Of a DNA stretch of 64,000 bases, positions 25,076 through 38,722 are shown piece after piece. The stretch spans positions 248,001 to 312,000 of the forward strand of contig NZ_VKOG01000003.1 in the NCBI RefSeq assembly GCF_007474545.1, in the 5' to 3' direction. Position 1 is the first letter of the stretch. Each line of letters begins with the position of its first letter. The notes under the pieces were generated by a model that saw only the letters and a list, made by a program, of their open reading frames with translations, had not been told where the DNA came from and searched no databases. This DNA comes from Chryseobacterium binzhouense. GTDB taxonomy: Bacteria; Bacteroidota; Bacteroidia; Flavobacteriales; Weeksellaceae. The translations under genes and the position numbers were made by a program.

Positions 25076-26197
25076 ATGAAGTTTATACTCACAACTGCTG
25101 AAAATGATGCAAGACCTGTTTTCATAACCGGAAATTTCAACAACTGGAATCCCAAAGATTATGATTATCAGCTGAAAAAAACGGAAGACAACACTTTCTG
25201 TATTGAAATAGATAATGAAAGACTCCCTGAAATTATTGATTATAAATTTACCAAAGGAGGATGGGAAAATGTGGAACTGGACAAATACGGAAACATCACA
25301 ACAAACAGAAAAGTAAACAAAACAGACAATGAAACTACAGATTTTGTAGAAAAATGGAGGCTCAACTGGGGACCTTTTAAAGATGAGTTTTTTCCTATTG
25401 TTGAAGTTATTTCTGAAGAATTTTATATTCCGCAACTGGATCGATACCGTAAAGTCTGGGCGCTTTTACCATATGATTATTATGTATCAGAAAAAAAATA
25501 TCCAGTTCTATACCTTCAGGATGCTCAAAATTTGTTTAATGAAGGCAGCCCTTACGGAAATTGGGAAATTGACAAAAAACTTTCCATTCTCTCTGAATAC
25601 GGAAGAGGTGATCTCATCGTAATTGCCGTAGAACATGGCAGCGAAGACCGTATAAAAGAATATATTTTTGACAATGACCATGTTGCCAATGGTTCTGAAG
25701 GAAAGAAATACATCCGGTTTATTACCGACACGTTGAAACCTTTTGTAGATCAGCATTACCGCACAAAAAAAGATCGTGACAATACAGGAATCGGCGGAAG
25801 TTCTTTAGGTGGACTTATCAGTATTTACAGCGGATTTCTTTATCCTGAAGTTTACTCTAAACTGCTGATTTTCTCACCTTCGCTTTGGGTAGAGCCTAAT
25901 AATAATTTCCCGATGATGAATTTCAGAACTCCCTACAAGACAAAAATTTATCTTTATGGAGGTGAGCAGGAAGGATCGAAAATGGTAAAAAGAATCAAAA
26001 TCTTTGAAAATTATCTTAAAAAATGGGAAGAAAAAAATCTTTTTGATTTTGAATTTAAAACAAGCATCAATCCCGATGGTTCACACAGCGAATTTTTCTG
26101 GTCACAGGAGTTTCCGAGAGCCGTAGAATGGCTTTTCTATAATAATACAGAAAATCCTGTAGAAGTAAAACCTCATCAGCAAGAAATACTAAAATAA
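25076..26197 (+). CDS. CBM48-like domain fused to an esterase (Fes/EsD-type alpha/beta hydrolase)
   Basis: A 373-residue protein with two parts. Residues 1-60 look like a carbohydrate-binding/isoamylase N-terminal module (F-I-T-G-N-F-N-N-W-N at 17-25 is nearly identical to GlgB's module). Residues 105-355 are an esterase-D/enterochelin-esterase type alpha/beta hydrolase with nucleophile Ser243 in G-S-S-L-G and a probable His near D-G-S-H-S-E at the C-terminal end. There is no signal peptide, so it acts in the cytoplasm. It is divergent from glgB and precedes the aminopeptidase gene by 7 bases. A role in deacylating glycogen-linked or peptide-ligase products is possible, but the substrate is unknown. 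Confidence 0.85.
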   Translation: MKFILTTAENDARPVFITGNFNNWNPKDYDYQLKKTEDNTFCIEIDNERLPEIIDYKFTKGGWENVELDKYGNITTNRKVNKTDNETTDFVEKWRLNWGPFKDEFFPIVEVISEEFYIPQLDRYRKVWALLPYDYYVSEKKYPVLYLQDAQNLFNEGSPYGNWEIDKKLSILSEYGRGDLIVIAVEHGSEDRIKEYIFDNDHVANGSEGKKYIRFITDTLKPFVDQHYRTKKDRDNTGIGGSSLGGLISIYSGFLYPEVYSKLLIFSPSLWVEPNNNFPMMNFRTPYKTKIYLYGGEQEGSKMVKRIKIFENYLKKWEEKNLFDFEFKTSINPDGSHSEFFWSQEFPRAVEWLFYNNTENPVEVKPHQQEILK

Positions 26198-26204
26198 CTA
26201 AAAA

Positions 26205-27620
26205 ATGAAATTATACAATAAGATAAACAAGCATTACAATCAGATATTCCAGCTTTTTACTGAAGAATCATGGAGCAGTAATTCAAAAAAATACAATAAT
26301 AATACAGCACTTTTTTTTTCGGGGAAAAAAAATGAAATTTTCGTCCAAACCAGTAAAGACAGTGTTACTTACTTCATTGGATTAGGAAAGGAGGATCTTA
26401 AAAATTTTGAGTTTCAGCAAGCAGGCTTGAAGTTTTCTCAATCACAAAAAAATAATATTCAACCTGTTTCCACACTTTTGTGCGCAGATTTCATTTCAGA
26501 AAAACAGGCTGCAGAATTCATCAAAGGACTTTATTTAGGAACTTATTCCTTTCCTTTTCAAAAAACCCATCCCGTTTGGAACGACTCTTTTGAGTTGCAT
26601 TTCGGAAACTTGAGTCAGAAAAAACTAGATAAAATTTCAGAAAAAACACTTGCAATCTGTGAAGGTCAGTTTGCTTGTCAGGACTGGCTCAACAAACCTG
26701 CTAATTTTAAAAAGCCTGAAGCACTTAGCGATTATCTAAAAAATATAGCAGCAAAAAATAACCTGAAATATACCGTATTCAATAGAAAAAAATGTAAAGA
26801 ACTTGGTCTAGGAGCTTTTTTGGCCGTAAATCAGGGAAGTGCTTATGATGCCGCCTTTACTATTCTGGAATACAAATCTTCAGAAAAAAATGCAAAAACT
26901 TTCGGGCTGGTTGGGAAATGTGTATTATTTGACACGGGAGGAATCTCTATTAAACCTTCTGACAATATGCATTACATGAAATCCGATATGGGCGGCGCAA
27001 CAGCCGTAATAGGAGCATTGATCTACGCTTCAAAAATGCAGCTTCCCGTCAATATTACAGCTATTTTACCGATCACCGATAATGCGGTTTCAGAAAACTC
27101 ATATCTTCCAAGTGATGTAATTACCGCTTACAACGGTAAAACAATTGAAGTCCTTAACACCGATGCAGAAGGCAGAATGACATTAGCAGACGGATTGTCA
27201 TATATGGTTAAAAATTACAAAACTGATGTTCTGATTGATTTGGCAACGCTTACCGGAAGTTCCGTAAGAATGTTTGGCGATACTTGTGGCGCAATGTTTT
27301 CTAATAATGATGACCTAAAAAGCCTTCTGATCAAAAGTGGAGATAAAACCAACCAAAGACTTTGGAATCTGCCGCTTTGGGATATTTGGATGGATGATTT
27401 CAAATCAGATGTTGCAGATTTTAAAAATATTTCAATGAAACCTATCGGAGATTGTATTGTCGCAGCAAAATTTTTAGAGCAATTTATAGAAAATCATCCC
27501 AACTGGGCGCATCTTGACATCGCCGGAGTTGCTTTCGGAAATGTAGGATATGCAAAAGAAAAGGCTGCAACAGGCTACGGAGTGCAATTATTAGCCGATT
27601 TAATTGAAAATTATCATTAA
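26205..27620 (+). CDS. M17 family leucyl aminopeptidase
   Basis: A 471-residue cytosolic aminopeptidase. All expected two-metal and catalytic residues are present with canonical spacing: Lys238, Asp243, Lys250, Asp261, Asp320, Glu322 and Arg324; the signature is N-T-D-A-E-G-R-M, with Met instead of the usual Leu. The N-terminal domain is poorly conserved, as normal for the family. It removes N-terminal residues from small peptides, including some dipeptides. Being 7 bases after the CBM-esterase and next to peptide-ligase genes, it could trim or recycle the cluster's product, but a general peptide-turnover role is equally compatible. Confidence 0.93.
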   Translation: MKLYNKINKHYNQIFQLFTEESWSSNSKKYNNNTALFFSGKKNEIFVQTSKDSVTYFIGLGKEDLKNFEFQQAGLKFSQSQKNNIQPVSTLLCADFISEKQAAEFIKGLYLGTYSFPFQKTHPVWNDSFELHFGNLSQKKLDKISEKTLAICEGQFACQDWLNKPANFKKPEALSDYLKNIAAKNNLKYTVFNRKKCKELGLGAFLAVNQGSAYDAAFTILEYKSSEKNAKTFGLVGKCVLFDTGGISIKPSDNMHYMKSDMGGATAVIGALIYASKMQLPVNITAILPITDNAVSENSYLPSDVITAYNGKTIEVLNTDAEGRMTLADGLSYMVKNYKTDVLIDLATLTGSSVRMFGDTCGAMFSNNDDLKSLLIKSGDKTNQRLWNLPLWDIWMDDFKSDVADFKNISMKPIGDCIVAAKFLEQFIENHPNWAHLDIAGVAFGNVGYAKEKAATGYGVQLLADLIENYH

Positions 27621-27761: not shown

Positions 27762-28973
27762 ATGAAGGAGAAAACTATCGTATGTATTTCGTGCTATTAT
27801 AAAGGATACGATTTTATGGACGAAATGAAAAATCTCGGCAATAAAATTATCCTGATAACATCCGAAAATTTAAAAGAAAAAAACTGGCCGTGGCATGCAA
27901 TAGATGAAGTTTTCTATATGCCCGAAATAAAACCTTCAGTATGGAATCTTGATCATCTTGTACAAGGCTTTTCTCATCTGATGAAAAGCCGCAAAATAGA
28001 TGCTGTTATTGCACTGGATGATTATGATGTGGAAAAAGCAGCTTTAGTGAGGGAAACTTTCCGGATTCCGGGAATGGGACAGACTACTCACCGTTATTTC
28101 AGAGATAAGCTTGCTATGCGCCAAAAAGCAAAAGATTCGGGAATTAATGTTCCTGAGTTTACGGCTATTTTCAATGATCAGGAAGTAAGAGATTTTACTG
28201 AAACAGTCCCCGCTCCATGGGTTTTAAAGCCAAGATCTGAAGCTTCTGCATCAGGAATTAAAAAATTAAAAAATCAGGAGGAGCTATGGACAGCATTGGA
28301 CGAACTAGGAGAAGAAAGACATTTGTTTCTTTTAGAAAGTTTTAAACCCGGTGATGTTTATCATGTTGACAGCCTTACTTTTAACAAAAAAACAGTATTT
28401 ACTTCAGCTTCAAAATATCTTGCTCCACCTATGCAGGTTTCACATGAAGGCGGAGTTTTCAGAACTAAAACCTTAGGAAGATATTCAGAAGAATTTAAGG
28501 CTTTGGACGAAGTTAATGCTAAAGTTTTATCAAGTTTCGGACTGCAAAACGGAGCTACTCACACCGAGTTTATCCGTAGTAAAGAAAACGGAAAATGGTA
28601 TTTCCTTGAGACTTCGTCCCGTGTAGGCGGAGCACATATTCCAGATCTTGTGGAAGCTTCAAGCAACATCAATATCTGGCGTGAATGGGCAAAAATAGAA
28701 GATGCCCTCCTTAAAGGAAAAGATTACGAAGTAGCTAAACCTACAGGCTATTATTCCGGTTTGATTGTTGCCTTAATCAAAGATATATCTCCGAACTATA
28801 AGGACTTTGAATGTGAAGAAGCCGTAAAATTTATCCCTATTGATTATCATGTCGGGATCGTATACAAATCTAACGATGCCAATATCGTTCAGGAAAGACT
28901 GGATACTACTGCAGAGAAAATTCATGCGGAACTTCTTAATATTATCCCCCCTAAAGACAAACCGACAAGCTAA
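27762..28973 (+). CDS. ATP-grasp carboxylate-amine ligase (biotin-carboxylase/DdlA fold)
   Basis: A 403-residue ATP-grasp enzyme with no membrane or signal sequence. The N-terminal third is a Rossmann-like preATP-grasp domain. The ATP-binding core lies at about 110-310: V-L-K-P-R-S-E-A-S-A-S-G near 165-177 with the phosphate-binding Lys, L-L-E-S-F-K-P-G-D-V-Y, and T-E-F-I...E-T-S-S-R-V-G-G, which carries the Mg2+ ligands. ATP-grasp ligases join a carboxylate to an amine or thiol through an acylphosphate. The substrates cannot be deduced. It is the first ligase of the 27.8-34.0 kb cluster, separated from the aminopeptidase gene by 141 bases. Confidence 0.85.
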   Translation: MKEKTIVCISCYYKGYDFMDEMKNLGNKIILITSENLKEKNWPWHAIDEVFYMPEIKPSVWNLDHLVQGFSHLMKSRKIDAVIALDDYDVEKAALVRETFRIPGMGQTTHRYFRDKLAMRQKAKDSGINVPEFTAIFNDQEVRDFTETVPAPWVLKPRSEASASGIKKLKNQEELWTALDELGEERHLFLLESFKPGDVYHVDSLTFNKKTVFTSASKYLAPPMQVSHEGGVFRTKTLGRYSEEFKALDEVNAKVLSSFGLQNGATHTEFIRSKENGKWYFLETSSRVGGAHIPDLVEASSNINIWREWAKIEDALLKGKDYEVAKPTGYYSGLIVALIKDISPNYKDFECEEAVKFIPIDYHVGIVYKSNDANIVQERLDTTAEKIHAELLNIIPPKDKPTS

Positions 28974-29063
28974 CAAGTTAGAAGTTAGAAGTTACTAAAA
29001 TTATTTTTTAGTACTTCAATATATTCTGTCGTTATTAAAAATCAAATATTATTAAAACTATAT

Positions 29064-29777
29064 ATGCCAAAAATAGAACACACTGATTATTATTCCCACA
29101 TCCTTGGAACAAGTCTGAAAGTTGAAGTTACGGGACATTACGGCTATCCGATCATCATGTTTCCGACTTCACAGGGACAATATACCCAAAACCATGACTT
29201 TCACCTTAACAGCAGCATCAATTATTTTGTAGAACAAGGGAAAGTAAAACTTTATAACATTCAAACCATTGATGCATGGAGTTTTTATGACGAAAAAATA
29301 TCTCCACAGCAGAGAATAAGAAATTATGAAAAATATGTACAGTTCTTAATACAGGAGTTTGTTCCTTATATCCAGAAACTCCATCAGACACACAGAGTTG
29401 CCGTTGCAGGAGCAAGCTTTGGTGGTTATCATGCGGCTAATTTCGCATTCAGATTTCCTGATGTTGTGTCGCACTTATTCTGTCTTTCGGGTGCTTTCAG
29501 CATCAGGAACTTTATGGACGGATATTCTGATGAGCTGGTTTATTTTAATTGTCCGCGCGAATTTGTAAAAAATGATGAAGCATGGAAATACAAACATATG
29601 CATATTGTTCTAAGCACTTCAGACGAAGACATCTGTAAAGATAAAAATATTGAAATGGCGGAAATTTTAGCTTCAAAAGGAATAGATTTCTGGTATGATG
29701 AAAAAAAATGGATCAACCACGACTGGCCTTTATGGAGAATGACTTTCCCTAATTATATAGAAGCTTTTTTCTCTTAA
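29064..29777 (+). CDS. Esterase family alpha/beta hydrolase
   Basis: A 237-residue cytoplasmic protein of the esterase (EsD/antigen 85-like) fold. The nucleophile is Ser118 in A-G-A-S-F-G-G, and the C-terminal N-H-D-W-P-L-W holds the likely catalytic His219, with Asp188 as a possible acid. Unlike the protein at 25076 it has no N-terminal carbohydrate module. It sits between two ATP-grasp ligase genes (90 bases after one, 37 before the next). In such a setting a hydrolase may edit or release ligated intermediates, which is inference only. Confidence 0.82.
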   Translation: MPKIEHTDYYSHILGTSLKVEVTGHYGYPIIMFPTSQGQYTQNHDFHLNSSINYFVEQGKVKLYNIQTIDAWSFYDEKISPQQRIRNYEKYVQFLIQEFVPYIQKLHQTHRVAVAGASFGGYHAANFAFRFPDVVSHLFCLSGAFSIRNFMDGYSDELVYFNCPREFVKNDEAWKYKHMHIVLSTSDEDICKDKNIEMAEILASKGIDFWYDEKKWINHDWPLWRMTFPNYIEAFFS

Positions 29778-29814
29778 AAATAAACTAAAATAAAAACATT
29801 AAAAATAAAAAATT

Positions 29815-30768
29815 ATGGCAAAGAAAGTAGGAATATTATTCGGAATGGAAGATACTTTTCCCTGGGCATTTATTGATAAAGTGAACGAAATGGGTGGCGG
29901 AGAAATCATTGCAGAACCCGTAAATATTGATAAACTTGAACAAGGCGCAGATTACGGATATGCAGTTATTATCGACAGGATTTCTCAGGATGTTCCTTTT
30001 TACAGAGCATACCTTAAAAACGCAGCGCTCCACGGAACCTATGTGATCAATAATCCTTTTTGGTGGAGCGCAGACGAAAAGTTTTTCAATAATGCATTAA
30101 TGTCAAAACTGGGAATTCCGTTACCTAAAACAGTATTGCTGCCTTCCCATGAAAGACCGACCAACACTTCAGAAACATCTTTCAGAAATCTGAAATTTCC
30201 TCATGACTGGGATTATATTTTTAATTACGTAGGATTTCCGGCGTATATGAAGCCGCATGATGGCGGAGGCTGGAAAAGCTTCTATAGAGTGGAAAATCCT
30301 GAAGATCTTTGGGAAAAACTTAGCGAAACCGAGCAACTGGTAATGATGGTTCAGGAAGAAATCGTATTTCAGGATTATTACAGAGTATACTGTCTCGGAC
30401 AGAAATACGTTCATATTATGCCTTACGAACCAAGAAATCCGCATCATTTGAGATATGCTACAACCCACCAGACAGAAGGTGAGGATTTAAAAAAACTGTT
30501 GAAAACGATACATGATTATACCATAAAAATGAATCAGGCTTTAGGATATGATTTCAATACTGTAGAATTTGCTGTGAGAGACGGCATTCCTTACGCGATT
30601 GATTTCTGCAATCCTGCTCCGGATGCTGACAAAAATTCTGTAGGAGAAGAAAATTTCGCATGGATTGTAGAGCATGCTGCTAAATTAGCTATTGAAAAAG
30701 CTAAAGAATATGTTCCGGGAAAACCCAATATCTCTTGGGGAACATTTGTAAAAAACTCAGTTAAATAA
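29815..30768 (+). CDS. ATP-grasp ligase, short form
   Basis: A 317-residue ATP-grasp protein, distinct in sequence from the one at 27762. An N-terminal pre-ATP-grasp domain occupies residues 1-95. The core includes F-P-A-Y-M-K-P-H-D-G-G-G-W near 141-153 (glycine-rich phosphate loop with Lys), M-V-Q-E-E-I-V near 180 and V-E-F-A-V-R-D-G...I-D-F-C-N-P-A-P-D (metal-binding Asp and Asn) near 250-270. The fold is that of RimK/tubulin-tyrosine-ligase relatives, which add amino acids to carboxyl groups. The neighbours downstream (29 bases) and upstream (37 bases) are probably co-transcribed. The product is unknown. Confidence 0.83.
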   Translation: MAKKVGILFGMEDTFPWAFIDKVNEMGGGEIIAEPVNIDKLEQGADYGYAVIIDRISQDVPFYRAYLKNAALHGTYVINNPFWWSADEKFFNNALMSKLGIPLPKTVLLPSHERPTNTSETSFRNLKFPHDWDYIFNYVGFPAYMKPHDGGGWKSFYRVENPEDLWEKLSETEQLVMMVQEEIVFQDYYRVYCLGQKYVHIMPYEPRNPHHLRYATTHQTEGEDLKKLLKTIHDYTIKMNQALGYDFNTVEFAVRDGIPYAIDFCNPAPDADKNSVGEENFAWIVEHAAKLAIEKAKEYVPGKPNISWGTFVKNSVK

Positions 30769-30797
30769 TTCAATCAGACCATAAAAAAAGCACAAAA

Positions 30798-31916
30798 ATG
30801 CATCAGTTTACTATCGGAATCGAGGAAGAATATCAGATTATTGATGTTGAAAGCCGCGATTTAATATCTCATGTTTCGAAAATCATTGAGGGCGGAAAAT
30901 CTGTTTTAAGTGAAAACTTAAAGCATGAAATGCACGAATCTATGATTGAGATGGAAACCGGAATCTGCCAGAATATTCAGGAGGCAACAGCTGAGCTTAC
31001 CAACCTGAGGAGGCATCTCATTAAAACTGCACACGAACAGGGACTGCGTGTATCAGGAGGTGGAACCCATCCTTTTTCCAATTGGGAACACAATACAATT
31101 ACCAATGGCGAAAGATATAATAAAATTGTTGATGATATGGGTGATGTGGCGAGAGGAAACCTAATTTTCGGGTTGCATGTTCACATTGGGATTCCAAATC
31201 GTGAAGAAGGGGTGAGAATTCAGAATGTTATGCGTTATTTTCTTCCTCATGTCTATGCACTTTCAGTAAATTCACCTTTCTGGATCGGAAGAAATACGGG
31301 ATTTAAATCTTACCGTCAGGAAATTTTTGTGAAATTTCCAAGAACGGGTATTCCAAGTTTTTTCAACTCTTTGGCTGAGTTTGACAGCTATGTAGATCTT
31401 TTGGTAAAAACCGGAACTATTGATAACGCCAAAAAAATCTGGTGGGATCTGAGAGTTCACCCTTTTTATCCAACCATTGAGTTCAGAATCTGCGATATGC
31501 CTTTAAGAATTGAGGAAACCGTATGTCTTGCTGCCATCATGCAGAGTCTTGTCGCAAAAATTTACAAACTTCACCAGCAAAACTTAAGCTTCCGAAGCTA
31601 CAGAAGACTGCTTCTGAATGAAAACAAATGGCGCGCTTCCAAGGATGGTATTCATTCTAAACTTATAGATTTTGGTAAAGAAGAATCTGTACCTTATCCT
31701 GATCTGCTGAAAGAACTTCTTGAGTTTATTGATGATGTAGTAGATGATCTAGGGTGCAGAAAAGAAGTAGAATACGCATGGAAAATACTGGAAAACGGAA
31801 CAGGAGCCGACAGACAGCTTAAAGTATATCAGGAAACAGGAGATCTGAAAAAAGTAGTTGATTATATGATTTCTGAAACAGAATACGGAATCACTCACAG
31901 CGAAAATGCTTTGTAA
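30798..31916 (+). CDS. COG2170 carboxylate-amine ligase (glutamate-cysteine ligase 2 / YbdK family)
   Basis: A 372-residue enzyme of the GCS2 (YbdK) family, which is related to glutamate-cysteine ligase and glutamine synthetase. The start I-G-I-E-E-E-Y-Q (residues 6-13) supplies metal-binding glutamates, and H-E-M-H-E-S-M-I-E-M-E, G-G-G-T-H-P-F and F-G-L-H-V-H-I-G are all conserved. The E. coli member has weak glutamate-cysteine ligase activity in vitro, but the true reaction of most homologues is unknown. In this place, between an ATP-grasp ligase and a glutamine amidotransferase, it probably forms an amide on an acidic amino acid. The stop is 32 bases from the amidotransferase start. Confidence 0.92.
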   Translation: MHQFTIGIEEEYQIIDVESRDLISHVSKIIEGGKSVLSENLKHEMHESMIEMETGICQNIQEATAELTNLRRHLIKTAHEQGLRVSGGGTHPFSNWEHNTITNGERYNKIVDDMGDVARGNLIFGLHVHIGIPNREEGVRIQNVMRYFLPHVYALSVNSPFWIGRNTGFKSYRQEIFVKFPRTGIPSFFNSLAEFDSYVDLLVKTGTIDNAKKIWWDLRVHPFYPTIEFRICDMPLRIEETVCLAAIMQSLVAKIYKLHQQNLSFRSYRRLLLNENKWRASKDGIHSKLIDFGKEESVPYPDLLKELLEFIDDVVDDLGCRKEVEYAWKILENGTGADRQLKVYQETGDLKKVVDYMISETEYGITHSENAL

Positions 31917-31924
31917 TTTTTTAA

Positions 31925-31932
31925 TAACTTTG
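31925..31932 (+). promoter_or_regulatory. Internal -7 promoter box (TAACTTTG) before the amidotransferase gene
   Basis: Perfect TAnnTTTG in the 32-base gap, ending 16 bases before ATG 31949. It could give the amidotransferase gene a start of its own within the cluster. Confidence 0.4.
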
Positions 31933-31948
31933 CCTAAATTTTAAAATT

Positions 31949-32782
31949 ATGACAGAGGTAAGAATTGCGTTGCTGGATATGAACAACAACCATGTCAATC
32001 AAGGATTTAGAAATATTAAAGAAATTTCGGAAGCTTTTAAGCAAGAGTCAAAAGAAGAAATTTCCATCCGGACTTTTGATGTAAGATACAAAAATGAAAT
32101 TCCGGCAATAGAAGATTTTGACATATTTATTTCTTCGGGAGGTCCAGGAAACCCTCACAGAGAAGGTCATGAATGGGAAGATCAGTTTGCAGATTTTCTG
32201 GATGCTGTGTATAATCATAATCTTCAAAACGAAAACAAAAAATATCTTTTCCTGATTTGTCATTCTTTTCAATTGGCAAGTATTCATTGGAAATTGGGCA
32301 ATATCTGCAAAAGAAAATCTTATTCCTTTGGCGTGATGCCCGTTCATAAAACCGAAGAAGGTAAAAACGAGTTTTTATTTAAAAACCTTCCGGATCCTTT
32401 CTATGCAGTAGATTCCAGAGCATATCAGTTTATAGAACCGGATGCAGACCGTTTTGAAGAACTGGGAATGCAGATTGTTGCGATTGAAAAATTCAGACCG
32501 CATATCAATCTGGAAAGAGCGGTAATGGCAGTTCGTTTTTCTGATGAGATTTTCGGAACCCAATTCCATCCTGAAGCAAACCCTTCTGGAATGATTGAAA
32601 ATCTCAAGGATGAAAAAAATAAAGAAGCGATGATTGAAAACTACGGAATGGAAAAATATCTTGAGACGGTTGACCGGATGAATGATGAAGATAAGATTGT
32701 CTTAACACAGGCTCAGATTTTACCGAGATTTTTACGTTCAGCAAAAAAGAATATTTTAAAAAAAAATGAAGCTTTAGTCTGA
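31949..32782 (+). CDS. Class I glutamine amidotransferase-like protein
   Basis: A 277-residue protein with a class I glutaminase domain in residues 1-210. The triad is complete: Cys104 in L-I-C-H-S-F-Q, and His207 with Glu209 in Q-F-H-P-E-A. The nucleophile elbow is C-H-S-F-Q, not G-x-C-x-G-x-Q, so it is a divergent member. A tail of about 65 residues follows. Such domains release ammonia from glutamine for a partner enzyme or hydrolyse gamma-glutamyl bonds, as PuuD does. The partner could be the COG2170 ligase just upstream. A terminator hairpin separates it from the next ligase gene. Confidence 0.88.
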   Translation: MTEVRIALLDMNNNHVNQGFRNIKEISEAFKQESKEEISIRTFDVRYKNEIPAIEDFDIFISSGGPGNPHREGHEWEDQFADFLDAVYNHNLQNENKKYLFLICHSFQLASIHWKLGNICKRKSYSFGVMPVHKTEEGKNEFLFKNLPDPFYAVDSRAYQFIEPDADRFEELGMQIVAIEKFRPHINLERAVMAVRFSDEIFGTQFHPEANPSGMIENLKDEKNKEAMIENYGMEKYLETVDRMNDEDKIVLTQAQILPRFLRSAKKNILKKNEALV

Positions 32783-32803
32783 ACAAATTAAAAATAAACA
32801 ATG

Positions 32804-32832
32804 AAAATCGAGCATAACTGCTCGATTTTTTA
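32804..32832 (+). terminator. Hairpin terminator inside the ligase cluster
   Basis: Perfect 11-base stem (32804-32814 with 32819-32829), loop TAAC and a six-T tail, between the amidotransferase and the last ligase gene. It suggests partial or full termination before the gene at 32855. Confidence 0.85.
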
Positions 32833-32854
32833 AATCACAAAAAAGAAAAAGAAT

Positions 32855-34039
32855 ATGATTTCAAAATACAGAAAACAGTTTAATCAGGAATTTTCTCAGG
32901 AAAAATACGAAAAGGTAAAAAATTTAATTAAAGAAAAAAGCGGGATCGAATCAGGATTTCGGCTGTCAGAAAGCCCTCTTTTTCTAACGAAAGAATTTGA
33001 AGCCAAACTTCTGGATGCTAGCGAAAGCATTATCGACCAAATCAAAAATCTCCGTGAAGGTATTCTGGAAAAAGCAATTCCCGAGAACTGCAAAGTACCG
33101 AATGACACCAGACAACCCCATTTTTTCACCATAGATTTTGGAATCTGCAGAAGCGAGAATGGTAAGATTGAGCCTCAATTGATAGAACTTCAGGCTTTCC
33201 CTTCTTTGTATGCTTTTCAGAAAATTTTTGAAGATACTCTTTGTGAAGTCTACCCTTTTCTTTCCGAAATTAAAAACAAAATGACTTCGGAAGAACTGAA
33301 ACAACATTTAACAGAATTAATCATCGGAGACGAAAATCCCGAAAATGTTATTTTACTTGAAATTTTTCCTGAAAAACAAAAAACATTGATTGATTTTGTT
33401 TTAACTGAAAAACTTTTAGGAATCAAAACGGTTTGCCTTACTAAAGTAAAAAAAGAAGGCAAAAAACTTTTCTACGAAAATGAAGGAAAGAAAACTGAGA
33501 TCAAACGTATTTATAACCGTGTAATTTTTGATGAACTGGACAAGATTCCGGATCTTAAAATAGAATTTGATTTTCGTGAAGAGGCAGATGTAAAGTGGAT
33601 CACCCATCCTAACTGGTTTTTCAAAATTTCAAAATTTCTTTTACCCATGCTTAATCATCAGTTTGTACCGAAAAGTTACTTTCTGCATGAGTTTCCGAAA
33701 ACTGAAAATCTTGAAAATTTTGTATTGAAACCTCTATTTTCATTTGCAGGAAGCGGAGTCAATCTAAATCCGACAACAGAAATTACTGATGCTATTGAGG
33801 ATAAAGAAAATTACATCTTACAAAGAAAAGTAAACTACGAACCGATTTTTGAAGACATCAACGGTGAATTTTCAAAAGCTGAAATCCGTTTATTGTACAT
33901 TTGGAGAGAAAATGAAGACCGCCCTGTTCTTTTGGAAAATCTCGGAAGAATGACGAAAGCAGCAATGGTAAATGTAGATTTCAATAAAAAAGACGCTATC
34001 TGGATCGGAAGTTCTAATGCTTTTTTTGCTGAAGAATAA
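32855..34039 (+). CDS. Divergent ATP-grasp-like protein
   Basis: A 394-residue cytoplasmic protein with no recognised family name. Its N-terminal part is helical. The segment D-T-R-Q-P-H-F-F-T-I-D-F-G-I with I-E-L-Q-A-F-P-S at about 84-130, and the C-terminal part with V-L-K-P-L-F-S-F-A-G-S-G-V, L-Q-R-K-V and E-I-R-L-L-Y-I-W, resemble the permuted ATP-grasp fold of glutathionylspermidine synthase-like enzymes. The phosphate-loop Lys (in V-L-K-P) is conserved. It is preceded by a strong terminator, so it may have separate control or depend on read-through. It converges on cphA. Confidence 0.7.
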   Translation: MISKYRKQFNQEFSQEKYEKVKNLIKEKSGIESGFRLSESPLFLTKEFEAKLLDASESIIDQIKNLREGILEKAIPENCKVPNDTRQPHFFTIDFGICRSENGKIEPQLIELQAFPSLYAFQKIFEDTLCEVYPFLSEIKNKMTSEELKQHLTELIIGDENPENVILLEIFPEKQKTLIDFVLTEKLLGIKTVCLTKVKKEGKKLFYENEGKKTEIKRIYNRVIFDELDKIPDLKIEFDFREEADVKWITHPNWFFKISKFLLPMLNHQFVPKSYFLHEFPKTENLENFVLKPLFSFAGSGVNLNPTTEITDAIEDKENYILQRKVNYEPIFEDINGEFSKAEIRLLYIWRENEDRPVLLENLGRMTKAAMVNVDFNKKDAIWIGSSNAFFAEE

Positions 34040-34054
34040 TCATATGTTGAAAAT

Positions 34055-34090
34055 AAATTTCGGCGGCATCTTCGATGCCGCCGAAAATTT
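34055..34090. terminator. Strong bidirectional terminator between ligase cluster and cphA
   Basis: Perfect 13-base stem (34058-34070 with 34074-34086), loop TTC, A run before and T run after. The stem sequence is almost the same as the terminator at 43271-43297. Confidence 0.88.
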
Positions 34091-34109: not shown

Positions 34110-36737
34110 TTAAATCTTGCCATCTTCAAGCAATTCTCTTGCCTGATAATCCTGTACCAGATCAATAGCATTCGAAATAACATCACTCAACGCGGTGATG
34201 AAAGTTCCTTCTTCAGCCATACTCATTGCATGTTTTAGTGCTTCAATTTCTTTTGGAATAATCTCATAGCTTACATCTCGACCTGATTGCTGAATACCGT
34301 CTATAATCAGACCGTTGATCTCATCTTCCGTTCTTCCGCGCAGATGTTTTTCGTTACGGATGATGATATAATCAAACATTCTTCCGGCAATTTTTCCGCA
34401 AAGTTTAATGTCTTCATCTCTTCTGTCACCCACTCCGGAAATGATTCCTATCTTTTTAGTTGACTCTACATTTTTCAGATAATCTTCAATAGCTTCATAA
34501 CCTGCAGGATTATGGGCAAAATCAATTAAAACTTTAAAGTTTTTAAATTTAAAAACATTCAGTCTTCCGGGTGTAAGCTGTGCACTGGGAATAAAAGTGC
34601 GCAGAGAGTTGGAAATATCCTCAATTCCAAAACCATACAGATAACATGCTAAACTCGCTGCTAAAATATTAGAAATCATGAATTTAGCCTTACCTTCCAT
34701 TGTAATAGGAAAATCTTTAGCCTTTCCGATTCTTATTTTCCAGTCACCTTTTTTGATGGTCACAAAACCTTCTTCATAAACACAGGTAGTCCTTCCCTCT
34801 TTTGCAAATTTTTTGATATGCTCATTATTTTCGTCCAGACTAAAAATAGCCACTTGACTCGGTAAGTCATTGATGATCCGCATAGAATATTCATCATCAG
34901 CATTCATTACACTCCATCCGTTTTTCTTCACGCTGTCAAGCACTACCCTTTTTACCCTTGTAAGATCTTTAAGATTGTGAATATCATTCATTCCTAAATG
35001 ATCTTCTTTAATATTGGTTAATACACCGATATCACATTGTCCGAAACCTAAGCCCGAACGAAGAATCCCTCCTCTTGCAGTTTCCAGGACAGCAAATTCC
35101 ACCGTTGGATCTTTTAAAATAAATTCAGCTGAAATAGGACCAGTTGTATCTCCTTTTGTCAGCATCGTATTCTGTATGTAAATTCCGTCAGAAGTTGTGA
35201 ATCCTACTCTGTAGCCGTTACTTTTAACGATATGGGCAATAAGTCGGGTTGTGGTTGTTTTTCCGTTAGTTCCCGTTACTGCAATAATAGGAATAGTAAA
35301 AGGTCTTCCCGGCGGATAAAGCATATCAACAACAGGAGCAGCGACATTTCTTGGCAGTCCTTCGCTCGGAGCAAGGTGCATTCTGAAACCGGGTGCCGCA
35401 TTAACTTCAATAATAGCACCGCCGCTTTCTTTCAATGGCTGCGTCAGATTTTCCGCCATGATGTCAATTCCACATACATCAAGCCCGATAATTTTCGAGA
35501 TCCTTTCTGCCATTGTGATATTTTCAGGATGTACCATGTCGGTTACATCAATAGAAGTTCCGCCTGTAGAAAGATTCGCTGTGGATTTCAGATAAACGAC
35601 CTCTCCTTTTTGAGGAACTGTTTCCAGCGTATACTGAAGCTTTTCCAGTAATTCCAGCGTGTCTTTATCAACATTGATTTCCGTTAGGACATTTTCATGA
35701 CCATATCCCCTTCTAGGATCCTGATTTTCTTTATCAATAAGGATTTGAATATTAGACTCACCATCTCCTACTACATGAGCAGGAACTCTTCTTGCGGCAG
35801 CCACCATTTTGTTGTTGATGACCAAAACTCTGAAATCGTAGCCTGTAATATATTTTTCTACAATTACTTTTTTAGAATATTTCTGAGCATGCTCCAGACC
35901 AATTAATGCAGAGTCAAAATCATTTACATTAATAGAAGACCCTTTTCCGTGATTGCCGTCTAAAGGCTTGATCACCACAGGAAAACCAATCTTTCTGATA
36001 ACATTTCTTAATCCGTCCTCATCTATTACCAAATCTCCCATCGGAACAGGTATAGCAGCATCATGAAGCATTCTTTTTGTAAGTTCTTTATTGCACGCAA
36101 TATCTACAGCAATAGAACTGGTTTTCCCTGTAATTGTTGCCTGAAAACGCTGTTGATTAACACCGTATCCTAATTGCACCAATGAGTTGCTTCCCAATCT
36201 TATCCAGGGAATTTTTCTGGAAACTGCCTCTTCTACGATACTTCCTGTAGAAGGTCCCAATCTCACACGTTCTCTGATTTCCTTAAGCTTTTGAATACAG
36301 GCATTAATATCGTATTCTCTATTTTCAATAAGAGCTTCGGCAATGGCAACAGACTGTTCGGCTGCGTAAATTCCGGCATTTTCTTCTATATAGTCAAATA
36401 CAACGTTGTAAACACCCGGAGTTTTTGTTTCTCGGGTTCGTCCAAAACCGGTATCCATTCCTGCAAGAGTCTGAATTTCGAGAGCAATGTGTTCAATAAC
36501 ATGTCCCATCCATGTTCCGGTTTCTATTCTGTGGAAAAACCCGCCTTTAACGCCTTCTGAACAGCGATGGCTGATAAGCGAGGGCAGAAGCTTTTCTATT
36601 CTTTCTCTGAAACCATCAATTTTATTGGTAGGAAAATTTTCCATCTCCTCAAGATCCAGTCTCATCTGGATCAGCTTTTTTCTTCTTATACTCCAGATAT
36701 TCGGACCGCGAAGCGCCTGTATTTTTTCAATTTTCAT
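34110..36737 (-). CDS. cphA: Cyanophycin synthetase
   Basis: An 875-residue enzyme that polymerises Asp and Arg into cyanophycin, a storage polymer. It has the CphA layout: an N-terminal domain (residues 1-160), an ATP-grasp domain (about 220-470, with P-V-V-I-K-P-L-D-G-N-H-G-K-G at 253-266 and E-V-N-A-A-P-G-F at 444-451), and a Mur-ligase-type domain with the P-loop G-T-N-G-K-T-T-T at 489-496. The length is normal for CphA1. A TATCTTTG box lies 49 bases before the start. It faces cphB, with which it shares a 203-base intergenic region. Confidence 0.96.
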   Translation of the reverse strand: MKIEKIQALRGPNIWSIRRKKLIQMRLDLEEMENFPTNKIDGFRERIEKLLPSLISHRCSEGVKGGFFHRIETGTWMGHVIEHIALEIQTLAGMDTGFGRTRETKTPGVYNVVFDYIEENAGIYAAEQSVAIAEALIENREYDINACIQKLKEIRERVRLGPSTGSIVEEAVSRKIPWIRLGSNSLVQLGYGVNQQRFQATITGKTSSIAVDIACNKELTKRMLHDAAIPVPMGDLVIDEDGLRNVIRKIGFPVVIKPLDGNHGKGSSINVNDFDSALIGLEHAQKYSKKVIVEKYITGYDFRVLVINNKMVAAARRVPAHVVGDGESNIQILIDKENQDPRRGYGHENVLTEINVDKDTLELLEKLQYTLETVPQKGEVVYLKSTANLSTGGTSIDVTDMVHPENITMAERISKIIGLDVCGIDIMAENLTQPLKESGGAIIEVNAAPGFRMHLAPSEGLPRNVAAPVVDMLYPPGRPFTIPIIAVTGTNGKTTTTRLIAHIVKSNGYRVGFTTSDGIYIQNTMLTKGDTTGPISAEFILKDPTVEFAVLETARGGILRSGLGFGQCDIGVLTNIKEDHLGMNDIHNLKDLTRVKRVVLDSVKKNGWSVMNADDEYSMRIINDLPSQVAIFSLDENNEHIKKFAKEGRTTCVYEEGFVTIKKGDWKIRIGKAKDFPITMEGKAKFMISNILAASLACYLYGFGIEDISNSLRTFIPSAQLTPGRLNVFKFKNFKVLIDFAHNPAGYEAIEDYLKNVESTKKIGIISGVGDRRDEDIKLCGKIAGRMFDYIIIRNEKHLRGRTEDEINGLIIDGIQQSGRDVSYEIIPKEIEALKHAMSMAEEGTFITALSDVISNAIDLVQDYQARELLEDGKI

Positions 36738-36786
36738 AGTTTAGCTCAAATAATTTTTTCTAATTAATAAATACATCATTTCAAAT

Positions 36787-36794
36787 CAAAGATA
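36787..36794 (-). promoter_or_regulatory. -7 promoter box (TATCTTTG) of cphA
   Basis: Perfect TAnnTTTG on the minus strand, 49 bases before the cphA ATG. Confidence 0.5.
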
Positions 36795-36927
36795 ATGCAA
36801 AACATGAAAAAAATACGCACCACCGTTGAAGATTTATGAAAAAAAATATTTAATAGTTAAGATCTTTAAAATCAAACTAATTACTTTAAAAAACTTTATT
36901 AAATTTCATCAACAATGAATAATTTTC

Positions 36928-36935
36928 TACTTTTG
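36928..36935 (+). promoter_or_regulatory. -7 promoter box (TACTTTTG) directly before cphB
   Basis: Perfect TAnnTTTG ending 5 bases before the cphB ATG. Transcription should begin at or very near the start codon, so the message would be leaderless. Confidence 0.6.
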
Positions 36936-36940
36936 TAAGC

Positions 36941-37825
36941 ATGAAACCTGTTGGAAAATTAATTATTATCGGCGGAGCGGTGAATAAAGGCAGCTTTACC
37001 GAAACAGATTACGATCAGAATGTTGAAAAAAATCTTAACTTTTTCGAAAGAGGAATTCTAAGAAAAATCATTACTGAATCTAAAAACAAAGAAAATTCTA
37101 TTATTGAAGTGATAACTACCGCTTCACAGATTCCCCAAATTGTAGGAGCAGAATACAAGAAAGCTTTTGAATTTTTGGGAGCTAAGAATGTAAATATTCT
37201 GGATATTCATAACCGTGAAGAAGCCAATTCTGACGCTATTGTAGCAAGAGCCAACGCAGCAGATGTGGTAATGTTTACGGGCGGTGATCAGCTCAGACTG
37301 ACTTCTATTCTTGGCGGGACAAGATTTCACGATGCTATTTTGCTGAAATATCAGGAGCAGGATTTTATCTACTCCGGAACTTCCGCAGGTGCAGCAGCAG
37401 CTTCTGAAAACATGATATACCAAGGAAGTAGTTCCGAAGCTTTGCTGAAAGGAGAAATAAAAACAACGCAGGGATTAGGTCTTATTGATAATGTCATCGT
37501 TGATACGCATTTTGTTCAGAGAGGAAGAATAGGACGGCTTTTTCAGGCTGTCGTAAGCAATCCGAGAACTTTGGGAATTGGTCTTGGGGAAGATACGGGT
37601 CTTTTTATTCATAACGATGTCATGACTGCAGTGGGATCCGGACTTGTGATCATTGTTGACGGAAGATTTATAAAAGATACCAATCTTACCAATATTAATC
37701 TTGGAGAGCCAATTTCAATTGATAATCTTACCGTTCATGTAATGTCTATGAATGATCACTATGATCTGAAGACAAAAACATTAACGATTGAAAATTCTCA
37801 GTTTAACCCGATTCCACAAACTTAA
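36941..37825 (+). CDS. cphB: Cyanophycinase
   Basis: A 294-residue S51 family peptidase that cuts cyanophycin to beta-Asp-Arg dipeptides. The nucleophile is Ser148 in Y-S-G-T-S-A-G-A, followed by F-T-G-G-D-Q-L-R (113-120) and the D-T-H-F-V-Q-R-G-R stretch (188-196) that is typical of cyanophycinases. No signal peptide, so it works on intracellular granules. It is divergent from cphA and 54 bases upstream of the isoaspartyl dipeptidase gene, so synthesis and breakdown are arranged as opposing units. Confidence 0.95.
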   Translation: MKPVGKLIIIGGAVNKGSFTETDYDQNVEKNLNFFERGILRKIITESKNKENSIIEVITTASQIPQIVGAEYKKAFEFLGAKNVNILDIHNREEANSDAIVARANAADVVMFTGGDQLRLTSILGGTRFHDAILLKYQEQDFIYSGTSAGAAAASENMIYQGSSSEALLKGEIKTTQGLGLIDNVIVDTHFVQRGRIGRLFQAVVSNPRTLGIGLGEDTGLFIHNDVMTAVGSGLVIIVDGRFIKDTNLTNINLGEPISIDNLTVHVMSMNDHYDLKTKTLTIENSQFNPIPQT

Positions 37826-37879
37826 AAGCAATTATTGATTAATAACAGCTTATCAATTATCATCTTATCAGACTACATT

Positions 37880-38722
37880 ATGAAAATCATCATACACGGC
37901 GGATTTTTTTCCGAAAGCGACCAAAGCAAGGATACCAAAATCGCCAAGCAAAACTCTTTGAAAGATATTGCTGAAAAATCTTTTAACTATCTAAAAAATA
38001 ATTCGGCTGTAGAAACAGTTGCTTTTGCAGTTTCGCTTTTAGAAGATGACGAACTGTATAATGCAGGAATAGGCTCACAGATTCAAAGTGACGGCATCAT
38101 AAGAATGAGTGCTGCCTTAATGGACGGAAACACCCAGAAAATGAGCGGTGTTATCAATATTGAAGATGTGAAAAATCCTGTTTTTGTTGCTCAGGAATTA
38201 ATGAAAGAAGAAGACAGAGTCCTGGGAGGAATCGGAGCTAAAAAATATGCTTCCGAACATGGTTTTGAAAATTTTTCTACAGAAATACCACAACGCAGAA
38301 GCGAGTATGAGGCAAAACTGCAAAATGGCGGAAAAGGAACTGTTGGATGTGTAGCTTTGGATAAAGATGGCAGACTTGCTGTGGCAACCTCAACAGGCGG
38401 AAAAGGCTTTGAAATTCCCGGAAGAATTTCAGATTCTGCTACTGTAGCAGGAAATTATGCCAATGAATTTTGTGCAGTAAGCTGTACCGGTGTGGGTGAA
38501 GATATTGTAAGCAATGCAACGGCAGCTAAAATAGTAACTCGTGTAACAGACGGTTTAAGCTTAAAAGATGCTTTCGGTAAAACATTCTCCGAATTAAAGC
38601 TCATCGACGGTTTTGCAGGTGCTATCGCAATTGATAAAAACGGAAATATTTTTCATCAGGATTCTCATCCCACAATGGTTTTCGCAAGTTTCGACGGAAC
38701 TGATTTTGAGATTTTTGAATAA
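37880..38722 (+). CDS. Isoaspartyl peptidase / L-asparaginase (Ntn-hydrolase, IaaA type)
   Basis: From ATG 37880 the protein has 280 residues. It is an N-terminal nucleophile hydrolase that cleaves itself; the predicted nucleophile is Thr154 in G-K-G-T-V-G-C-V-A-L-D. M-K-I-I-I-H-G-G is the standard family start, and N-A-G-I-G-S at 61-66 and A-T-S-T-G-G at 169-174 are conserved. It hydrolyses beta-aspartyl dipeptides, so it should take the beta-Asp-Arg made by CphB to free Asp and Arg. An in-frame ATG at 37835 gives an atypical 15-residue extension and is rejected. Confidence 0.92.
   Translation: MKIIIHGGFFSESDQSKDTKIAKQNSLKDIAEKSFNYLKNNSAVETVAFAVSLLEDDELYNAGIGSQIQSDGIIRMSAALMDGNTQKMSGVINIEDVKNPVFVAQELMKEEDRVLGGIGAKKYASEHGFENFSTEIPQRRSEYEAKLQNGGKGTVGCVALDKDGRLAVATSTGGKGFEIPGRISDSATVAGNYANEFCAVSCTGVGEDIVSNATAAKIVTRVTDGLSLKDAFGKTFSELKLIDGFAGAIAIDKNGNIFHQDSHPTMVFASFDGTDFEIFE

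Follow-up and report, generated by a model that had tools for sequence, protein, structure and literature searches.

We analyzed a 64,000-nt window of the Chryseobacterium binzhouense genome (contig NZ_VKOG01000003.1, positions 248,001 to 312,000) and identified a block of six + strand genes, hereafter C, D, E, F, G and H, spanning positions 27762-34039. Its probable product is a single small peptide-like or amide compound of non-ribosomal origin, assembled through ATP-dependent ligations in succession. E, F and H, accompanied by C in a subset of genomes, have ligase folds with conserved active-site residues and are kept as a unit. We conclude that the block is one functional unit because its gene order is conserved in most of the loci compared, and because F and H co-occur across genomes and agree within families in which H varies.

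The first gene, C (27762-28973), encodes an ATP-grasp_4 ligase loosely resembling DdaF and BacD (PF13535, 36.9 bits; cut-off 27). It is followed by D (29064-29777), a PF00756 esterase and predicted serine hydrolase (39.3 bits; cut-off 22), and by E (29815-30768), an ATP-grasp ligase whose predicted model has a RimK/LysX/ArgX fold and which scores above no Pfam cut-off. F (30798-31916) is a COG2170 (YbdK-type) carboxylate-amine ligase (PF04107, 220 bits), and G (31949-32782) is like the class I glutamine amidotransferases (PF00117, 37.9 bits; cut-off 22.8), a putative ammonia donor or thiol peptidase. The last gene, H (32855-34039), encodes a ligase with a predicted glutathione-synthetase/GspS/YgiC fold and passes no Pfam or NCBIfam family cut-off. 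An earlier note on this DNA had described three ATP-grasp ligases, a COG2170 ligase, a class I amidotransferase and an esterase on one strand, and the open reading frames, family scores and structure models agree with that description. The note also gave gaps of 29 to 141 bases. From C to H the gaps are 90, 37, 29, 32 and 72 bases, so that the range inside the block is 29-90; the 141-base gap lies between the end of an upstream M17-family aminopeptidase gene (27620) and the start of C.

Conservation of the gene block

To compare loci, named genomes were scanned with an alignment of E, and the best 80 of 584 confirmed matches, from Bacteroidota, were retained. Among these 80 matches, the closest named relatives of this 3.6-Mb genome are Chryseobacterium species, with up to 95% identity in protein E. 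D-E-F-G-H are collinear on one strand in 66/80 of these E-selected loci, and several of the other 14 lie on short contigs. Carriers include the environmental, culturable species Dyadobacter soli (L107) and Maribacter antarcticus (L109). The earlier note had allowed that the genes might be scattered in relatives; mostly the opposite was found.

We then scored presence across 198 Bacteroidota genomes. H was present in 60, E in 72, F in 62, G in 50 and C in 43. H co-occurred with E in 58 genomes, with F in 56, with G in 39 and with C in 33, and all five were found together in 19. H without F occurred in four genomes and F without H in six, while 49/50 genomes with G and 43/43 with C (at least 290 bits) also carried E. 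Weak matches were kept for E in G007, G087 and G160 and for F in G004 and G167; those for G in G188 and for C in 18 genomes (under 290 bits) were dropped.

Nominal hypergeometric values ignore relatedness, and the counts were therefore redone inside families, using the 11 families (69 genomes) that include H-plus as well as H-minus genomes. H and F agreed in 65/69 of these genomes and H and E in 66/69. In 20,000 within-family shuffles of F, the agreement reached at most 53, versus the 65 observed. All four H/F disagreements come from a single family (f5), in which H and E are present without F. The co-occurrence also holds in genomes where the genes lie apart, which bears out the earlier proposal that the genes act as one unit.

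We fetched the surroundings of H for 40 of the 60 H-plus genomes. At 85% coverage, E was found within the fetched DNA in 25/40, F in 24/40, G in 21/40 and D in 16/40. A variant block in five loci (L152, L154, L158, L159 and L160) consists, in this order, of E, a 451-474-residue protein, G and an esterase, together with C in L152 and L154, and the genomes concerned are without H. Compared to circularly permuted ATP-grasp models, the 451-474-residue protein scored over the cut-off in L152 and under it in L158, and gave no match in L160. In a distant Bacteroidota genome, a single 867-residue open frame (L019:67-2670) joins a sodium:solute symporter to H, representing either a real fusion or a start-site artefact.

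Ligase families and active sites

All four ligases have folds in which the known members form amide or peptide-like bonds, as the earlier note had held. Active-site residues are retained throughout the alignments, which hold between 17 and 40 sequences for each family. F is the most clearly classified, passing the COG2170 family scores of both TIGR02050 (303.6 vs 176.4) and PRK13515 (534 vs 371). The GhExE motif, given in PMC2588565 as the signature of COG2170-type ligases, is present in F as GIEEE, with Glu9, Glu10 and Glu11 in 17/17 aligned sequences. A role for F as the GshA of glutathione biosynthesis was rejected (TIGR02048, 68 vs 249). A glutathione-like thiol was also provisionally set aside as the product, given that F is not GshA-type and that PF10079 (BshC, bacillithiol) occurs in 196/198 genomes including this one.

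C scores far below the L-amino-acid ligase equivalogs, with 34.4 vs 840 for DdaF and 24.1 vs 850 for BacD. E likewise falls short of the RimK family scores (TIGR00768, 33.5 against 143.4; TIGR02144 also far under its cut-off), and a Pfam search gave no PF08443 match for it. In the predicted structure models E and H both have ATP-grasp folds, that of E being a RimK-family fold. The structural neighbors of H were obtained with VIA-align and cover Foldseek's top 1000; H may also resemble families off that list.

H had no family match in Pfam or NCBIfam at an E-value of 0.001, and its PF03738 (GSP_synth) score was 17.8 bits, under the cut-off of 29.3. Across 99 genomes there were eight PF03738 matches, none of them at an H gene. 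The predicted fold of H is that of YgiC and GspS. The RxD and ExN motifs of these enzymes are absent as such from H, which has no Arg at position 92 but retains D94, and which carries E111-x-Q113, in 40/40 aligned sequences. In addition, H contains an invariant E343-x-R345 and E an invariant R190, which we take as the conserved ExR arginine that is described in PMC4431377 as marking the ATP-grasp assemblage making peptide-like linkages.

A separate PF03738 gene (223 bits) is found elsewhere in the same genome (L198, G000:C14:114107-115174), which thus has a further ligase of this fold besides H. The PADLOC anti-phage defence models gave no match to C, D, E, F, G or H at an E-value of 0.001, and a plasmid search with E and H gave none.

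Hydrolases and flanking features

G exceeds the class I amidotransferase family score, and its Cys104, His207 and Glu209 triad is intact in 22/22 aligned sequences; the catalytic motifs that the earlier note had read as intact in G and F are thus conserved in both families. In D, the serine of the GxSFGG motif is kept in 10/12 aligned sequences.

Upstream of the block, and on the same strand, lie a second PF00756 esterase, A (25076-26197; 82.3 bits over residues 120-300), and the M17-family aminopeptidase (26205-27620; PF00883, 354 bits). M17 is found in 30/80 loci. C is present in 32/80. In 23 of these loci it precedes the block on the same strand; in 7 it follows the block on the opposite strand and in 2 on the same one. 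M17 accompanies C in 30 of the 32 loci and A in 23. The persistence of this linkage in three arrangements argues for a function of C, M17 and A shared with the block, beyond inherited order alone. The six genes first noted are therefore confirmed, and the set is larger, as the second esterase and the aminopeptidase travel with C.

Other hydrolases, of unrelated folds, recur at varying positions. In L061 and L066 the gene between F and H encodes an M29 aminopeptidase, and in L063 a creatininase-family protein is encoded next to H. An alpha/beta hydrolase lies between D and E in seven loci (Pfam was run on 1/7 members), and a six-member Amidohydro_3 cluster (Pfam run on 2/6) neighbors H in five loci and, in L047, separates F from G. 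As these hydrolases vary around constant ligases, we infer that the pattern suggests amide or ester cleavage to be part of the system.

Two potential hairpins flank H. A perfect inverted repeat of 11 pairs with a 4-base loop and a T run on the + side (32804-32829) lies between G and H, inside the operon, and is a possible attenuator or processing site. A 13-pair, terminator-like hairpin (34058-34086; a consensus match only) follows the end of H and separates it from a convergent cyanophycin synthetase gene. The adjoining block (34110-38722) comprises this cyanophycin synthetase (TIGR02068, 1262 bits), an S51 cyanophycinase-like peptidase and an isoaspartyl peptidase-like gene. We rejected a link to cyanophycin: a cyanophycin synthetase gene was found in 13/121 first-compared loci, those of near relatives, and in a control on 116 genomes it was over the cut-off in 12, with H in 6 of them (Fisher p 0.11), showing no clear association. 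F and H in the same 116 genomes were both present in 32 and both absent from 78, with F only in 4 and H only in 2.

A adjoins glgB-like and glgA-like genes. Pfam gave esterase-type domains only for A, and the stretch of ~115 residues before the esterase domain includes GNFNNWNPKDY, which by eye we take to resemble a glycogen-binding CBM48 module.

Proposed product and known systems

In the route that we propose, F would phosphorylate a carboxylate and couple it to an amine, forming the first amide; the gamma-carboxylate of glutamate is given in PMC2588565 as the usual substrate site in its superfamily. Judging from the folds, E (RimK/LysX-like) would lengthen the product by an amino acid, and H (glutathione-synthetase/GspS-like) would attach a last amine or amino acid to the growing acid; an amine is the probable choice for this step. 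Where present, C would make or add a further piece, and the changing hydrolases (D, A or a relative, M17 or M29, and G, which may act as a thiol peptidase or donate ammonia) would trim, deprotect or recycle the product. The step order and the substrates are guesses. According to PMC4431377, operon-linked distinct ligases often perform successive ligations.

Several observations weigh against this proposal. The set is variable: family f5 has no F in any of its four H-plus genomes, and G is missing from 21/60 H-plus genomes and C from 27/60. The chemistry of H may differ from that of the ExN/RxD enzymes, because the Arg of RxD is absent and the Asn of ExN is replaced by Gln in all 40 sequences. 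The GxSxGG serine is lost in 2/12 D homologues (L058:12567-13268 and L063:12761-13468), and in that lineage D may therefore be a partner protein with no catalytic role. Finally, leaving aside the block, M17 and an A-like esterase (48 loci), a class III aminotransferase is the commonest gene found within 1.5 kb, at 13 loci, so no neighbor names the product.

A more specific form of the proposal concerns the final amine, for which a polyamine is a fair candidate, making a polyamine conjugate a possible product. F and E could build a glutamate-based peptide that H caps with a polyamine, which in Flavobacteriia would be homospermidine. The result would be a new conjugate of peptide and polyamine across Bacteroidota, a bacterial counterpart of trypanothione and glutathionylspermidine made by a ligase family with replaced RxD/ExN motifs. 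We regard this version as speculative and rather unlikely. Homospermidine is reported in PMC3072086 as the major polyamine of Flavobacteriaceae. PF01916 is present in 56/60 H-plus genomes, including this one, versus 103/138 H-minus genomes; because the gene is common anyway, it does not support the polyamine reading. Of the four H-plus genomes without PF01916, three have nspC over the cut-off and one (G066) has neither. Over the 198 genomes, nspC exceeds its cut-off in 8 and speA in 35. The nspC, PF01916 and speA counts do not separate a polyamine product from the alternatives.

Among these alternatives, we considered a nitrogen-rich amide for storage or osmotic balance: a short acidic peptide, built by the ligases, would be amidated with ammonia from G, and the hydrolases would later release its nitrogen. 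The intact G triad, the presence of E in nearly every genome with G, the many hydrolases and the cyanophycin locus next door in near relatives are all consistent with this account. However, G is missing from more than a third of H-plus genomes (21/60) and cyanophycin synthetase is not clearly H-associated, and we consider it unlikely.

Gamma-glutamylation for amine use or detoxification, in which F or H glutamylates and G or an aminopeptidase later removes the glutamyl group, seems still less plausible. Glutamylation followed by glutamyl removal is the logic of the Puu and ergothioneine routes. M17, M29 and Amidohydro_3 proteins near the block would fit, as would the F family itself, and GAT-like thiol peptidases are described near a related ligase family (PMC2588565). 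Such a route would nevertheless leave three further ligases in excess of its need, and no oxidase or transporter appears as a constant neighbor in the neighbor listing, which gives clusters only.

The addition of amino acids to a protein, suggested by the likeness of E to RimK and of F to its relative PafA, is very unlikely, since the 29-90-base gaps leave no space for a small tag gene within the block and H is nearest to small-molecule ligases. That the genes belong to separate pathways and merely share an operon is highly improbable: some lineages do lack individual genes and H lies without nearby E and F in part of the 40 loci, but H and F agree in 65/69 genomes of varying families, also where the genes are apart.

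Our preferred reading remains a single small peptide-like or amide compound. Although the F-H pair occurs in 56/198 sampled Bacteroidota genomes, two ligases of the block exceed no family cut-off. Putting a name to the product would account for hypothetical proteins of many bacteria from soil, the sea and hosts. Both E and H are candidates for use as biocatalysts of amide-bond formation, and H offers a natural test of the distance to which the glutathione-synthetase fold can drift away from its catalytic motifs.

We searched the literature by titles and abstract openings, with most subscription journals outside coverage, and found no description of this gene set. The block is real and conserved, two of its ligase families (E and H) pass no model cut-off, and no named product was found. 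The amidoligase survey of Iyer et al. 2009 reportedly predicted neighborhoods of this class.

The closest characterized proteins to H are the E. coli peptide-spermidine ligases YgiC and YjfC and GspS (PF03738), with 10-16% identity in structural alignments. YgiC has R100xD102 and E115xN117, whereas H has xxD and ExQ; H further differs from these three in sitting in a ligase operon and scoring below the PF03738 cut-off. No sequence match of H to eukaryotic glutathione or trypanothione synthetases or to fungal Cp1B was found. Cp1B of the E-64 pathway keeps R139, D141, E163 and N165, as given in PMC12568646, of which H has only the D and E. F, in contrast, is a full family member alongside YbdK (COG2170), with the GhExE signature, and differs in belonging to an operon that is conserved and holds further ligases. 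Neighborhoods in which ATP-grasp and GS-fold ligases are linked to peptidases form an already predicted class (PMC4431377, PMC2588565). By their description there, these predicted amidoligase neighborhoods likewise bring together linked ligases that differ in fold and peptidases whose folds are unrelated.
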